From NCBI RefSeq assembly GCF_003236365.1, contig NZ_POTZ01000017.1, positions 1-33,521 of the forward strand: a stretch of 33,521 nt of DNA, read 5' to 3'. Shown here piece by piece: positions 13,039 to 32,611 of the stretch. The notes under the pieces are model-generated. The model searched no databases, was not told where the DNA came from, and worked only from the letters and a program-made list of their open reading frames with translations. Both the position numbers and the translations under genes were made by a program. How positions within the stretch are numbered: position 1 is the stretch's first letter; the number at the start of each line of letters is the position of its first letter. Source of the DNA: Streptomyces sp. NTH33. GTDB lineage: Bacteria; Actinomycetota; Actinomycetes; Streptomycetales; Streptomycetaceae.

Positions 13039-13296
13039 CACGACCTCGTAGACGTCGCCCAGCATGGTCACGCCGGTCCAGGTGAGCCGCGGCGCCGGCA
13101 CGAGCAGTCGCCGCTCCACGACCTCGCGCTCGGCGAACGCGGCGATCACCGGCCGCTTCCCCGTCCGGCCAGCACCGGGCGCCACCGAGACGGTGCCGCG
13201 TCCGCCGGCGGCCACATACACCCGCGGATCACGGAGCTCGACGGCCAGCACTCCGCCATGACCTCTGTAGGTGAGCGTCCCGCGGAACGCGTGGAA
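13039..13296 (-). pseudogene. Fragment of an unassigned secreted/HtaA-like protein
   Basis: Minus-strand reading gives FHAFRGTLTYRGHGGVLAVE, LRDPRVYVAAGGRGTVSV and LTWTGVTMLGDVYEVV. The arrangement (short beta-strands, GHGGxLxVxLxDPRV, a later LTxxGxxxxGxxY) recalls an HtaA-type repeat domain, but only about 86 codons remain, with no start codon or signal peptide. The upstream side is cut by the IS200/IS605 right end at about 13300-13342. I am unsure of the family; it could be another beta-rich domain. It does not look like part of the catabolic pathway. The rest of 12968-13329 holds a small palindrome (TCCGATC-tc-GATCGGA at 13013-13028) that might terminate the racemase transcript. Confidence 0.35.
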
Positions 13297-13322
13297 AGAC
13301 GCAGCAGCATCGATTGCTTCCT

Positions 13323-13342
13323 CCCCCGCCTAGAGGTGGGGG
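13323..13342. repeat. IS200/IS605 right-end hairpin
   Basis: cccccgcctagaggtggggg forms an 8-bp stem with one mismatch around the tnpB stop codon. A hairpin of this form after GIPHL-stop is the usual right end of actinobacterial IS200/IS605 elements. The IS edge is near 13300. Confidence 0.6.
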
Positions 13343-13611
13343 ATTCCAGCGGTCACCCGCTGGACTTCCTGCTTCACCGACGACCGCCCCGTCCGGGAGG
13401 ACTCCCGCTGAGGTCTTACACCGTCTCCACAGGCAGACGCCGCCAGCCCGGCGGCCAGGATGTTGCGTGCCGCGTTCACGTCGCGGTTGTGCACGGTGCC
13501 GCAGTCGCACGTCCACTGGCGGACGTTCAGTGGCAGCTTCCCACTGACCGTTCCGCAGTTCCCGCACAGCTTGCTGCTGGGGAACCAGCAGTCGATCACG
13601 ACGAGTTCGCG
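13330..13611 (-). pseudogene. tnpB: TnpB (IS200/IS605, OMEGA nuclease) C-terminal remnant
   Basis: The frame reads [40 protein letters not shown] and [15 protein letters not shown] before ending GIPHL. This is the TnpB zinc ribbon (CxxC...CxC) and the last RuvC motif, with the catalytic Asp in RDVNAARN. About 93 of roughly 400 codons remain, so the RuvC I/II motifs and the N-terminal wedge are gone and the nuclease cannot work. Its 5' edge is joined directly to a flavoprotein reductase gene at about 13612. The right-end hairpin remains. No TnpA was found. Confidence 0.88.
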
Positions 13612-14092
13612 TGACGATGACCTTGGTGTCCGGCCCGACGTTGACGCGGAACCGCACGGTGTCCTTGAGGGTGCGCAGCTCGTGCACCCCTGGCAGTTTC
13701 ATGCCCGGGAGGTCGATGCGCACCGGGTCGGTGCCGGTGGCCCGCACGAAGCGGGCGTAGGCGAACCGGTCGCCGTGCGAGGTGACCACCACGTGTGCCT
13801 CGGCGTCGATCGTCGTCACGTGCTGGCCGAGGAGCAGAGTGACCCCGGAGTCCTGCCAGAAGGTCGACGGTCGGAGCAGGAGCCCGGGCGCGGTGACGTC
13901 GCCGGCCAGGAACCCCTTGGTCAGAGGCGGTCTCTCGTAGGGCTCGCACCGCTCGGCCGACAGGAGCCCGGTGCTGCCTTCGAAGGACGAGGCGAGGATG
14001 GCCGCCACTTGGACGCCAGCGTGTCCCGCGCCGACGGCAAGGACGTCGAATTGGGTGCCGGGCCGGTGATCTGCCTGGGCTGAGCCGCTCAT
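13612..14092 (-). pseudogene. FAD-dependent (ferredoxin-reductase-like) oxidoreductase, 5' half
   Basis: This fragment has 160 codons of a reductase related to ferredoxin/rubredoxin reductases of oxygenase systems. It shows the FAD motif DVLAVGAGHAGVQVAAIL (GxGxxG at 21-26), EPYERPPLTKGFL, RATGTDPVRIDLPGM and [14 protein letters not shown]. It stops at KVIV, exactly where the second NAD-binding GGGxIG motif should begin, and runs into TnpB sequence. About 240 residues are missing. Its ATG overlaps the TGA of the upstream reading frame (ATGA), so it was once part of an operon. It implies that the ancestral island had a reductase-driven hydroxylation step that is now lost. Confidence 0.82.
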
Positions 14093-14590
14093 TGCGGGCC
14101 CTCGACGACCACCTCGGCGGTTGCCTTGGTCAGTTGATGTACGTCTCGTGGGGACCATCACCTTGCGGCGGAAGGTGCACACGAGCGTGCCGTCCTGCTT
14201 GTAGCCCCGGGTCTCGACGTGGACGATGCTGCGGTCGTCCTTCGACTGGGACGGCCACCTGTCGAGGACGGTCGTCTCGCCGTAGACCGTGGCGCCCACC
14301 TTCCACGGCGACACGGTCTACGGCGACTCGATCTCCAGGTTGGCGATCGCCTTGCCGGAGACGTCCGGCACCGACATGCCGAGCAGGAGGGAGTAGACGT
14401 AGTTCCCGACGACGACGTTCTTGCCGAAGTCCGTCGTCCTCTCCGCATAGTTGGCGTCCATGTGGAGCGGGTGGTGGTTCATCGTCAACAGGCAGAACAG
14501 GTGGTCGTCGTACTCGGTGACCGTCTTGCCGGGCCAGTGCTTGTACACCGTCCCGACCTCGAACTCCTCGTAGGTCCGTCCGAACTGCAT
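14089..14590 (-). pseudogene. MaoC-like mesaconyl-CoA hydratase, disrupted
   Basis: The 5' half reads MQFGRTYEEFEVGTVYKHWP, then a MaoC/R-hydratase core TMNHHPLHMDANYA (hydratase motif with D and H) and GNYVYSLLLGMSVPDVSGKA. This is the form found beside CoA-ester lyases in the streptomycete ethylmalonyl-CoA pathway. An amber stop at 14318-14320 follows NLEIESP. Downstream the frame resumes with YGETTVLDRWPSQSKDDRSI and ends in RRKVMVPT, where a second frame change occurs near 14145-14153. A frame ending VPTETYIN (stop 14130) looks native. A different frame, LTKATAEVVVEGPQ, runs to the TGA at 14089-14091. The stop arises from a local inverted copy described separately. The gene starts 5 bp after the lyase gene. 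Confidence 0.85.
14277..14326. repeat. Perfect 15-bp inverted repeat inside maoC
   Basis: tcgccgtagaccgtg (14277-14291) and cacggtctacggcga (14312-14326) are exact reverse complements around a 20-nt spacer. Read on the plus strand, 14292-14326 would encode APTFHGDTVYG in frame, the segment expected on the minus strand of this maoC. The repeat therefore looks like a recent inverted copy rather than a functional hairpin. Confidence 0.85.
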
Positions 14591-14595
14591 GCCGC

Positions 14596-15561
14596 TCAGC
14601 CCTCCGGGATCTCGAACGTGCTGGTGCGCCGCATGCCGGCCGCGCGGCCCTTGCCCGCGATGACCAGCGCCATCTTCCGGCTGGCCTCGTCGATCATCTC
14701 GTCGCCGAGCATCGCCGAGCCCTTCTTGCCGCCCGCCTCGGAGGTGCAGTACTCGTACGCGTCCAGGATCAGCTCGGCGTGGTCGTAGTCCTCCTGGGAG
14801 GGCGAGAAGACCTCGTTGGCGGCGTCCACCTGGCCGGGGTGCAGCACCCACTTGCCGTCGAAGCCGAGCGCGGCGGCCCGGCCGGCCACCTCGCGGAAGC
14901 CGTCGACGTTGCGGATCTGCAGGTAGGGGCCGTCGATCGCCTGGAGGTCGTTGGCGCGGGCGGCCATCAGGATCTTCATCAGGATGTAGTGGTAGGCGTC
15001 CGCCGGGTAGCCGGGCGGCTGCTCGCCCACGACGAGGGACTTCATGTTGATCGACGCCATGAAGTCGGCCGGGCCGAAGATGATCGTCTCGATGCGCGGC
15101 GAGGCCTGCGCGATGGTGTTGACGTTGTTCAGGCCCTGCGCGTTCTCGATCTGCGCCTCGATGCCGATCCGGCCGACCTCGAAGCCCATGGTCTTCTCGA
15201 TCTGGGTCAGCAGCAGGTCCAGGGCGACGACCTGCTGGGCGTCCTGCACCTTGGGCAGCATGATGCAGTCCAGGTTCGGGCCGGCGCCCTCGACGACCGT
15301 CACCACGTCCCGGTAGGTCCACTCGGTCGTCCAGTCGTTGACGCGGACCACCCGGGTCTTGCCCGTCCAGTCGCCCTCGTTGAGGAACTTGACGATGGTG
15401 TGCCGCGCCTCCGGCTTGGCCAGCGGCGCGCACGCGTCCTCCAGGTCGAGGAAGACCTGGTCGGCGGGGAGGCCCTGCGCCTTCTCCAGGAAGCGGGGGT
15501 TCGAGCCCGGTACGGCCAGGCAGGAGCGCCGGGGGCGAAGGGAGCGACGTGCAGTAGTCAT
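14596..15561 (-). CDS. HpcH/HpaI-family CoA-ester lyase (malyl-CoA / beta-methylmalyl-CoA lyase type)
   Basis: This 321-residue citrate-lyase-beta-like enzyme shows PRRSCLAVPGSNPRFLEKA, FLDLEDACAP (acidic metal site), VRVNDWTTEW, CIMLPKVQDA, IGIEAQIENAQGL (metal-binding Glu), FGPADFMASI and DGKWVLHPGQV. It would cleave (3S)-malyl-CoA or beta-methylmalyl-CoA to glyoxylate plus acetyl- or propionyl-CoA, a core step of the ethylmalonyl-CoA pathway, with the adjacent maoC product hydrating mesaconyl-CoA. I recall almost the same sequence in the conserved Streptomyces locus with ccr and meaA; neither of those is here. An AGAGGA ribosome site precedes the ATG. The following maoC is broken, so the pair is probably a relocated or duplicated copy rather than the cell's main one. 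Confidence 0.92.
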   Translation of the reverse strand: MTTARRSLRPRRSCLAVPGSNPRFLEKAQGLPADQVFLDLEDACAPLAKPEARHTIVKFLNEGDWTGKTRVVRVNDWTTEWTYRDVVTVVEGAGPNLDCIMLPKVQDAQQVVALDLLLTQIEKTMGFEVGRIGIEAQIENAQGLNNVNTIAQASPRIETIIFGPADFMASINMKSLVVGEQPPGYPADAYHYILMKILMAARANDLQAIDGPYLQIRNVDGFREVAGRAAALGFDGKWVLHPGQVDAANEVFSPSQEDYDHAELILDAYEYCTSEAGGKKGSAMLGDEMIDEASRKMALVIAGKGRAAGMRRTSTFEIPEG

Positions 15562-15724
15562 AGCTGTGTCCTCTTACGTCAGAAGTGAAGTTTCACGGGA
15601 TCGGCCGAGCCTGCTGGTGTCGCGGAGGTCGTCGACCAGCTCGAGGAGGTCCTCCTCGTCGTCGTAGTGGCCGACAGGGCCGGTCCGTGGCTGCGGTCGG
15701 CACCACAGTGATTCTCGGATCAGG
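15562..15724 (-). other. Short region upstream of the lyase, possible gene tail
   Basis: A minus-strand frame ending at 15574 reads GHYDDEEDLLELVDDLRDTS then RLGRSRETSLLT-stop. The acidic helix resembles the C-terminus of class V aminotransferase-fold proteins (HYNTEEDVDRLVxAL), but the fragment is too short to assign. No operator was found here, so the lyase gene depends on read-through from upstream or on an unrecognised promoter. Confidence 0.2.
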
Positions 15725-20456: not shown

Positions 20457-21587
20457 TCAGAGCAGCTCGAGGATGGTGGCGTTGGCCAGGCCACCGGCCT
20501 CGCACATCGTCTGGAGCCCGTAGCGGATCCCGTTGTCGCGCATGTGGTGCACCAGTCGGGTCATCAAGATGGCGCCCGACCCGCCGAGGGGATGACCGAC
20601 GGCGATGGCGCCGCCGAGCGGGTTCAGGCGGTCTTCCTTCGCACCGGTCTCGGCCAGCCAGGCCAGGGGGACCGGGGCGAACGCCTCGTTGACCTCGAAG
20701 GCGCCGATCTCGTCGAGTGCGAGTCCCGACTTCTTCAGCGCCAGCTCGGTGGCCCGGATCGGAGCCGTCAGCATGATCACCGGGTCGTCGCCGGCCACAA
20801 CGGCGGTGTGGATCCGGGCGATGGGTGTGAGGCCGTTGGCCTGGGCGATCTCCGAAGTGGTCAGCAGCAGCGCGCCCGCCCCGTCGGAGATCTGAGAGGC
20901 GTTGCCGGCGGAGATGACGCCGTCGCTCTTGAAGGGGGTCGCCAGCGTGGCGAGCTTCTCGAGCGAGCCGCCCCGCCGGATGCCCTCGTCGGCCGCCAAG
21001 CCGCCGAGCGGCACCAGCTGCGAGGCGAACGCACCGGCGTCGACCGCGGCGGCGGCCAGCTCATGGGAGCGAAGGGCGTACTCGTCGAGCGTGGTGCGGG
21101 ACAGCCCCCACCGCTCGGCGATCATCTCGGCACCGATGCCCTGGTTGAATCCGTCCACGCCGTAGTGCTCGAGCACGGCGGTGGGCACGGTCTGGGCCCC
21201 CTGCGCGGCGCTGCCCATCGGCACGCGGGTCATCGACTCGACTCCGCCGGCGACGGCGAAGTCGTACTGCCCCGCGATCACACCCGCTGCCGCGAAGCTC
21301 ACGGCCTGCTGGCTCGAGCCGCACGCCCGGTTCACCGACGTGGCGGGCACGCTCTCGGGCCAGCCGGCCGTCAGCACCGCGTTGCGGCCGATGTTGCTGG
21401 CCTGCTCGGAGACCTGGCTCACGCAGCCCCAGATCACGTCGTCGACGAGAGACGGCTCGAGGTCGTTGCGCTCGGCCAGGGCGCGCAGCACGGTCGCCGA
21501 GAGATCTGCGGGGTGGATGTCCGCCAGGGCGCCGTTCCGCTTGCCGATGGGTGTCCGTACGGCGTCGACGATCACCGCATCTCTCAT
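20457..21587 (-). CDS. Thiolase (acetyl-CoA acyltransferase)
   Basis: This 376-residue thiolase performs the last beta-oxidation step. The nucleophile is C89 (SVNRACGSSQQA), N300 lies in EVNEAFAPV, H332 is in AIAVGHPLGGSGA and the second Cys is C362 (MCEAGGLANATI). It starts MRDAVIVDAVRTPIGKRNGA with GGGAG upstream. It is the first gene after operator E and probably heads the operon thiolase-SDR-crotonase-crotonase-dehydrogenase pair. Length and residues are intact. Confidence 0.95.
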   Translation of the reverse strand: MRDAVIVDAVRTPIGKRNGALADIHPADLSATVLRALAERNDLEPSLVDDVIWGCVSQVSEQASNIGRNAVLTAGWPESVPATSVNRACGSSQQAVSFAAAGVIAGQYDFAVAGGVESMTRVPMGSAAQGAQTVPTAVLEHYGVDGFNQGIGAEMIAERWGLSRTTLDEYALRSHELAAAAVDAGAFASQLVPLGGLAADEGIRRGGSLEKLATLATPFKSDGVISAGNASQISDGAGALLLTTSEIAQANGLTPIARIHTAVVAGDDPVIMLTAPIRATELALKKSGLALDEIGAFEVNEAFAPVPLAWLAETGAKEDRLNPLGGAIAVGHPLGGSGAILMTRLVHHMRDNGIRYGLQTMCEAGGLANATILELL

Positions 21588-29649: not shown

Positions 29650-30366
29650 GTGCCTGCCGACGCATCATCGCCGATCCCGCCTGCCTTTGACCAACTCAGC
29701 GAGCAACCCGGGGCGGTACCCGAGGAGATCCCGGGCCTGCTGGAGCGACTGGCCGAGGTGCCCGACCCGCGCGGTGTACGGCACGCCCTGGTCGCGGTAC
29801 TCGCGCTGACCGCGTGCGCGGTGTCGGCCGGAGCGGTTTCCCTGCCGGCGGTTGGCGAGGGGACCACAGACACCCCGCCGTCCGTCCTGGAACGGCTTGG
29901 CGTGCGGCCTGATCCGCTGTGCCCGAAGCGTTGTCTGCCCGCGGAGACGACGGTACGGCGGCTGCTGGCCCGCATCGACGGCGACGTGCTGGACCGGGCG
30001 GTGGGCCGCTGGCCGGCAGACCGACGCGCAAGCAGCGGCGGCCGGCTTCGCGGGCCGGCGGTCGACGGCAAGAGCCTGCGCGGAGCGGCTCGGGCCGAGG
30101 GCCGCAAGATCCATCTGCTCGCTGCCTGCGACCACGTCTCCGGCCTGGTGATGGCCCGGCTCGACGTGGGAGAGAAGACCAACGAGATCACCTGCTTCCA
30201 GCCACTGCTGGTGCCCCTCTCCGGCCTGGCAGGTGTGGTGGTGACCAGCGACGCGATGCACACCCGGCACGAGCACGCCGACCACCTGCTCAGCCGGGGC
30301 GTGCACTACATCGTGAGCGTGAAAGGGAATCAGAAGAACCGGATCGTGACCGGGCAGGAGCTGTGA
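29650..30366 (+). pseudogene. ISAs1-family transposase, 5' part only
   Basis: The frame gives 238 residues with [40 protein letters not shown], the first catalytic Asp in [49 protein letters not shown] and the second Asp in [14 protein letters not shown]. It breaks off after [11 protein letters not shown], before the catalytic Glu domain, and a short tail ends at 30366. The element is therefore dead. Its truncation point lies just before operator G, so the sequence to the right is a rejoined piece of the island. Confidence 0.87.
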
Positions 30367-31633: not shown

Positions 31634-32145
31634 CGATGGCCACACACGTAAGCGACACCGGGCTTCCGGGACATCTGGGACTCCTCCCGCTGACCGGTCG
31701 AGGCCGCGGTCTGGCGCCGCTGGTGCATCCTGACAACGAGTCGTTCTGGAACTCCATCGCCGCCGGGGAGCTGTCCCTGCAGCGGTGCGGGTCGTGCCAG
31801 ACCCTACGGTTCCCCCTGGCACCGGTCTGCCACCAATGCCTCAGTCCGGAGTTCACCTGGGAGGCGATCGACACCCGGGGGAGCGTCAACGTGGTGATCG
31901 AGAATGCTCGTGCAACCGACGGCATGCCGCGTATCGGGCTCGAGGCGCCGTGGCCGGAGTTGACGCCCTACTTCACGGGCGCCGTGGATCTGGACTGTGG
32001 TCTCCGCCTGCCCGGCAGGATCGTCTGCGACTGCGGCGAGGTGCGCTCGCGCGGCGTGCGGGTGCGGGGTGTCAGCCTGGAGACCACCTGCGACACCCGG
32101 GTCCACGGGTTCGTCCACGCGTGTGTCGTCGGCCCGTTCGAGTAG
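31630..32145 (+). CDS. DUF35 / Zn-ribbon OB-fold partner protein
   Basis: A 171-residue protein overlapping the thiolase-like gene by ATGA. It has an N-terminal helix (HPDNESFWNSIAAGELSLQR), a rubredoxin-like zinc ribbon with C53, C56, C67 and C70 (CGSCQ...CHQC), and then an OB-fold (RGSVNVVIENARATDG, YFTGAVDLDCGLRLPGRIVC). DUF35 proteins bind thiolase-fold partners and acyl-CoA; in ChsH2/Ltp2 the DUF35 domain stabilises the retro-aldolase. The last part (SLETTCDTRVHGFVHACVVG) departs from the usual C-terminus, so a minor 3' change is possible near the IS3 insertion just downstream. Confidence 0.88.
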   Translation: MTMATHVSDTGLPGHLGLLPLTGRGRGLAPLVHPDNESFWNSIAAGELSLQRCGSCQTLRFPLAPVCHQCLSPEFTWEAIDTRGSVNVVIENARATDGMPRIGLEAPWPELTPYFTGAVDLDCGLRLPGRIVCDCGEVRSRGVRVRGVSLETTCDTRVHGFVHACVVGPFE

Positions 32146-32263
32146 GCCGGTTACGGCCTACCGGCCGAGCACGTCACGCAGCGCCGCGGTCACGGGACCT
32201 GTCCCCGAGTGGTGGACACCTCTGAGCCCGGCCCCGGCAGGGGTCGGGGAGGAGGGGTCTTTT

Positions 32264-32611
32264 ATGGTGATGAAGGTCTACTCGCCCGAGTGCAAGGCGG
32301 ACGCGGTCGCGCTGTACCTGTCGGGCCCGAGCCACACCTTCGAGGGCATCGGCAAGGACCTGGGGATCAGCCGGGAGACGCTGCGCAACTGGGTGCGGGC
32401 CGAGCGGGCCCGCCGCGGTCAGAGCGGCACGGCGAGCACGAACATGAAGGACGTTCCGGTGAGCGAGGCCACGAGAGAAGAGCTGGAATCCGAGATCGCG
32501 GCCCTGCGCGCGGAGCTGAAGACCGTGCGCAGGGGGAACCAGAAACTGGCTACCGAACGGGACATCCTGCGCAAGGCGACGAAGTTTTTCGTACAAGAGA
32601 TGACCTGGTGA
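32264..32611 (+). pseudogene. IS3-family transposase OrfA, element truncated
   Basis: A 115-residue OrfA (MVMKVYSPECKADAVALYLS). It has an HTH in FEGIGKDLGISRETLRNWVR and a leucine-zipper helix ELESEIAALRAELKTVRRGN with ILRKATKFFVQEMTW at the end. OrfA itself is intact, but the OrfB that should overlap its end is absent; the sequence diverges right after the TGA at 32609-32611. The left IS end is probably near 32199 (tgtccccgagtggtggacac). The element cannot transpose on its own. Confidence 0.85.

Follow-up and report, generated by a model that had tools for sequence, protein, structure and literature searches.

A probable inter-strand template-switch scar in a redundant, decaying maoC copy of Streptomyces sp. 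NTH33

Introduction

In the yeast gene REG2, the inversion of the spacer of an inverted repeat and the homogenisation of its arms occurred together, as described in PMC8604942, and in that source an inverted spacer is attributed to intermolecular switching. For events that are described by four switch points, it is stated in PMC7954356 that a point 2 lying ahead of point 1 rules out the nascent strand as its own template. A literature search for template switches in Streptomyces pseudogenes found no paper. Here we analyse a site of Streptomyces sp. NTH33 at which, by comparison with homologous sequences, a spacer has been inverted and one arm of a repeat homogenised to the other, so that a stop codon now lies in a duplicated maoC. 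We propose that this site was, very probably, left by a single short template switch between strands during replication. The mutation class is known, and the scar adds a new example to it, in a gene copy that is redundant and decaying.

Results

A duplicated mcl-maoC block with several lesions

The window, i.e., the whole stretch of DNA analysed, is the complete contig C289 (33,521 bases) of an assembly of 7.86 Mb in 1200 contigs, and the sequence at the site is the one given by this assembled contig alone. The features of the block that carries the site are the following:

14134-15540, minus strand: duplicated mcl-maoC block of 1.4 kb, 95% identical to C317:3405-4812 of the same genome
14134-14590, minus strand: maoC / mesaconyl-CoA-hydratase-like pseudogene, with its ATG at 14590; the match to the paralogue extends to about 14134
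14596-15561, minus strand: mcl-like CoA ester lyase gene (HpcH/HpaI), open, 321 aa, directly upstream of maoC

The paralogous maoC on contig C317 is intact and open, and the identity to C317 is 97.8% in mcl and 94.7% in the 5′ part of maoC. The block begins and ends within genes, with the match running from codon 8 of the window mcl to about codon 152 of maoC. Codons 1-7 of the duplicate mcl (MTTARRS; 15541-15561, minus strand) are outside the block and have only MT in common with the start of the C317 gene (MTSPAPQVNR); the start of the duplicate mcl is supplied by the insertion site. The C317 pair adjoins frames that presumably encode relatives of crotonyl-CoA reductase, methylmalonyl/ethylmalonyl-CoA mutase and acyl-CoA dehydrogenase.

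The duplicate maoC does not have a full-length open frame: 90 codons are open before an in-frame TAG (14321-14590, where PF01575 and PF19315 were matched), one nucleotide is deleted between 14148 and 14149, and the 3′ end has been lost. The tract with the TAG is one of these three lesions. Hence, the initial annotation was right that a stop is present, but to say that it breaks maoC would be an overstatement for a duplicate that is also missing one nucleotide and its 3′ end and whose paralogue is intact.

The block may have originated by internal duplication or by transfer from a near relative. In a tree of 125 sequences, not de-duplicated, the window sequence grouped with C317 and the homologue L118 (support 0.844), and the window-C317 pair had a support of 0.168. 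When the region 13300-15600 was searched in a plasmid collection, 73 records matched, the best with 61% coverage at 86.7% identity, and no record of the collection covered 80% of the region. On the window branch, with L118 as the sole outgroup, maoC had 10 nonsynonymous and 11 synonymous changes and mcl had 1 and 10, respectively (Fisher p 0.0499); on the C317 branch, which served as the control, the counts were 3 and 2 in maoC versus 3 and 7 in mcl. Since the control leans the same way, these counts give at most a hint that selection on the duplicate is relaxed. When only changes that are rare among the homologues were counted, the window had 4 nonsynonymous and 2 synonymous ones, and the pooled 110 homologues 36 and 81.

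Other frames were observed in the window. On the minus strand, 13600-14092 is the N-terminal part of a reductase gene (Pyr_redox_2), which we take to be ferredoxin-reductase-like, and abutting this truncated FAD-dependent reductase is a remnant, 13330-13599, that encodes a TnpB-like C-terminal piece (Pfam Cas12f1-like_TNB). An open frame of 361 aa (13229-14314) joins the TnpB-like and reductase pieces by chance. The start codon of the reductase (ATG, 14092) and a TGA of another frame overlap, which would fit a former coupling to an upstream gene that is now reduced to its last codons; this gene may have given way to the mcl-maoC block. On the plus strand, 29650-30366 is a DDE transposase frame of 238 aa, possibly truncated (Pfam DDE_Tnp_1_assoc and DDE_Tnp_1), and 31997-32611 is an open frame whose second half, we assume, resembles IS3-type OrfA.

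Anatomy of the inverted tract

The elements of the site, with the tract drawn in the 38-nt version that was tested, are:

14289-14326, minus strand: inverted tract, recopied in reverse orientation under the proposed reading, containing the in-frame TAG
14277-14314, minus strand: site of the copied template in the ancestral sequence, as represented by the homologues; overlaps the tract
14277-14291: perfect 15-bp arm, retained original; the coding strand reads CACGGTCTACGGCGA
14312-14326: second 15-bp arm, homogenised to the first; partly complementary in homologues
14292-14311: 20-nt spacer, inverted relative to homologues
14318-14320, minus strand: TAG stop from the inverted tract, maoC codon 91

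In gene order, the right-hand arm is thus the original one, the other arm is homogenised and the spacer between them is inverted, which is visible only through the homologues and not from the window sequence alone. The repeat extends imperfectly to 14272-14296 and 14307-14331 (88% complementary). When the whole window was searched for inverted repeats of 20 nt or more, with a 12-nt seed and arms at most 200 nt apart, two were detected, one being the maoC site. The other, at 21151-21190, has overlapping 26-nt arms that are 81% complementary, and lies in a frame that presumably encodes a thiolase. At each joint of the maoC tract four bases, TCGC and CACG, are common to both templates, so that the exact ends of the tract are ambiguous (31 to 39 nt, at most 14288-14326).

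The window was compared with 110 homologous loci (106 distinct sequences); its own locus was left out, and L003 was omitted because it fell below the cut-off. Among the matches listed, 79 of the 80 named loci belong to Streptomyces and one to Streptacidiphilus, and the first 89 residues of maoC were matched in 175 of the 199 genomes searched as relatives; by its homologues, the window thus belongs to Streptomyces. The ancestral state was taken from the C317 paralogue together with the orthologues. The maoC frame of the window reads EIES-P-stop-TVSPWKVGATVYGETT, and the homologues read E(I/V)ES-L(R/K)H(V/I)(A/T)PTFHGDT(I/V/L)YG at the same place. PTFHGD was found in the normal orientation in all 110 loci, preceded by A in 109 of them and by T in one. 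The alignment to the C317 paralogue is gapless across the site, hence the replaced length is equal. These results uphold what had first been read from the window itself, namely a perfect 15-bp inverted repeat at 14277-14326, generated by a 35-nt reverse-complement tract of unchanged length and frame where an APTFHGD-like peptide was to be expected; the 35 nt fall within the 31-39 nt that the shared joint bases permit.

One inverted copy accounts for the clustered differences

The 38-nt tract had 14-21 mismatches to the 110 homologues when aligned in the direct register and 1-6 in the inverted register; with the C317 paralogue the numbers were 17 and 2, respectively. The lowest residual over the 38 nt was one mismatch, found with 6 of the 110 homologues. 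One base of the spacer requires the ancestral codon CCC, which is present in 6/110 homologues and absent from the paralogue, and this base reflects either ancestral variation or one later substitution. We then applied a template-switch scan, a custom search for equal-length inverted copies and not the published pair-HMM. The gain from allowing one switch was 13 against the C317 paralogue and 11-16 against five other chosen homologues, and with 400 random pairs of homologues the same scan gave a maximum gain of 6. The centre sum was 577 in gene coordinates with all six references. The best inverted tract covered 15-18 direct mismatches and left 0-2 with five of the six references, and covered 13 and left one with the sixth, L036. 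The descendant segment is therefore the reverse complement of a nearby ancestral segment, and one event accounts for the clustered mismatches, at a gain above that of the homologue-pair control.

A weak quasi-palindrome in the homologues

The homologues contain a quasi-palindrome with the same centre, formed by an outer TCGC/GCGA pair and an interrupted inner stem, CGTGxCGCC/GGCGxCACG, so that the ancestral repeat was imperfect and bases were shared at the switch points. The outer pair is present in 74 of the 110 homologues, GTG/CAC in 94 and both in 62; the core CGCC/GGCG was found in 97. The full 4-nt CGTG/CACG pair occurs in 76/110, and together with TCGC/GCGA in 47/110, the full 4+4 pairing at the joints being missing in the remaining 63. 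A long stem is predicted for the derived form (z -5.56, with none of 200 shuffles as good), and the segment of the C317 paralogue has a weak fold (z -1.45, 17/200 shuffles as good), in which the inner stem is predicted and the outer TCGC/GCGA pair is absent.

Order of the switch points

The window sequence is that of a homologue-type ancestor in which one arm plus the spacer has been replaced by the reverse complement of the spacer plus the other arm. In our own derivation the order of the points would be 1-3-4-2 if the coding strand was nascent, or 3-1-2-4 if it was the other strand. Point 2 thus lies ahead of point 1 for either nascent strand, and not behind it as in a snap-back, which leads us to conclude that the switch was probably an inter-strand one. 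The inverted spacer, with one arm homogenised and the other unchanged, is what such a switch is expected to leave. A template switch that created the TAG had been proposed in the initial annotation and is supported by the gains given above, but its intramolecular form does not agree with point 2 being ahead of point 1.

In the proposed sequence of steps, the nascent 3′ end would have left its own template (at TCGC in the case of a nascent coding strand), perhaps at a stalled fork, and primed on the strand of complementary sense at the matching position of the quasi-palindrome. About 30-35 nt would then have been copied backwards before the end returned, via CACG, to the original template at the mirror position. 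The unchanged length would follow from the mirror symmetry of the joints. The TAG would be a by-product of the switch, and the redundancy of the gene, whose paralogue is intact, probably allowed it to persist. The C317 paralogue was also considered as the copying source, and it is not favoured: the tract has GTC (Val) as in the local arm, where C317 has ATC, although a later change could account for this. A simple inversion of the entire TCGC...GCGA unit is excluded, given that the right arm (14277-14291) still matches the homologues directly.

Spread and age of the scar

A 31-nt pattern over one joint was searched in 395 genomes with up to three mismatches. It was matched in 129 of them, and the window was the sole exact match (1/395). 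The remaining matches listed have two or three mismatches, with GTC or GAC where the scar has GAG. By their sequences, and in some cases also by where they lie with respect to maoC, these non-exact matches appear to be the opposite strand of the normal sequence. The genome set comprises one genome per species, and no sister strain that carries this duplicate in its ancestral form turned up in it. The probability of zero mismatches between the 15-nt arms is about 0.64-0.22 at a divergence of 1.5-5% per arm, where 1.5% and 2.7% are branch lengths of the tree and 5% is an upper trial value. The event could therefore date back to the duplication itself, and the perfection of the repeat, which had been taken as a sign that the scar is fresh, does not demonstrate this.

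Discussion

The reading of the maoC site as a single inter-strand switch was weighed against other explanations. The same sequence could have been generated in two steps, in which a microinversion of the inner segment between CGTG and CACG was followed by a separate homogenising of about six bases of the outer arm. Inner repeats that are capable of such a flip do exist in the homologues (GTG/CAC in 94/110), and in nine of the ten yeast cases of PMC8604942 only the spacer was flipped, the arms being already perfect. Nevertheless, this history needs two events with the same centre, no intermediate was seen, and one switch yields the changes of both the arm and the spacer; we consider it unlikely.

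Fold-back chimeras occur in amplified DNA, and the assembly is fragmented into 1200 contigs, so that the inverted tract could be an artefact of assembly or amplification and the genome itself unchanged. This would be still less probable. The site is in the middle of a contig of 33.5 kb, the same maoC copy carries other lesions, and a wrong consensus would presumably need the chimera in most reads. Moreover, when the contigs of this genome were searched, only the diverged C317 paralogue, besides the block's own contig, matched the block closely, and therefore a copy of the window allele in the normal orientation was not assembled. As to a chance cluster of ordinary substitutions, or positive selection, nothing was found in its favour: some 17 clustered differences from C317 reduce to one inverted copy plus two residual mismatches, the product is a stop codon, and the control with 400 pairs speaks strongly against it, which leaves this explanation a negligible probability.

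Under the single inter-strand switch, a weak natural quasi-palindrome within a conserved bacterial gene would have sufficed for the inversion of a 20-nt spacer together with the homogenisation of a 15-bp arm. The geometry in question is a 4-bp outer pair, an interrupted inner stem of 4 + 4 or 5 bp and a loop of 8-10 nt. Much of this coding quasi-palindrome is conserved across many Streptomyces, so that the site in maoC could act as a standing hotspot whose products are normally selected away and become visible only in spare copies; we regard this as a speculative idea with a small chance of being correct.

The wider consequence of the event is probably small, because the affected copy is a pseudogene and its paralogue is intact. 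The site offers a clean natural bacterial case, in which the ancestral and the derived sequence are legible at each base and a snap-back is excluded by the direction in which the copying ran. Programs that look for template switches in high-GC genomes could use it as a positive control, and it is a warning that a single mutation can mimic some 17 clustered substitutions.

Among the described systems, yeast REG2, as presented in PMC8604942, resembles the maoC site in that the ancestral short inverted repeat was imperfect, the spacer was inverted, the length was kept and a coding gene was affected. The perfect derived arms are also of similar length (15 bp here and 16 bp in REG2). The spacer is 20 nt in the maoC site, in contrast to 5 bp in REG2 and 2-5 bp in the ten yeast cases of that source, and the change amounts to 17 differences from the paralogue over 38 nt, compared with seven substitutions in REG2. 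Unlike in REG2, the event yielded a stop codon, and the host is a Streptomyces. As with the template switches of great apes in PMC7954356, four switch points describe the change; the majority types there, 1-4-3-2 and 3-2-1-4, give single inverted repeats, whereas the type proposed here is 1-3-4-2 or 3-1-2-4 and the gene is a bacterial duplicate. The quasipalindrome-associated mutations in lacZ reporters of E. coli (PMC7202029) resemble the maoC site in that an imperfect palindrome is miscopied during bacterial replication. What these reporters detect is the intramolecular kind of switch, by which a 4-bp frameshift is removed, whereas in the duplicated maoC the spacer is inverted and the switch would have been an inter-strand one.
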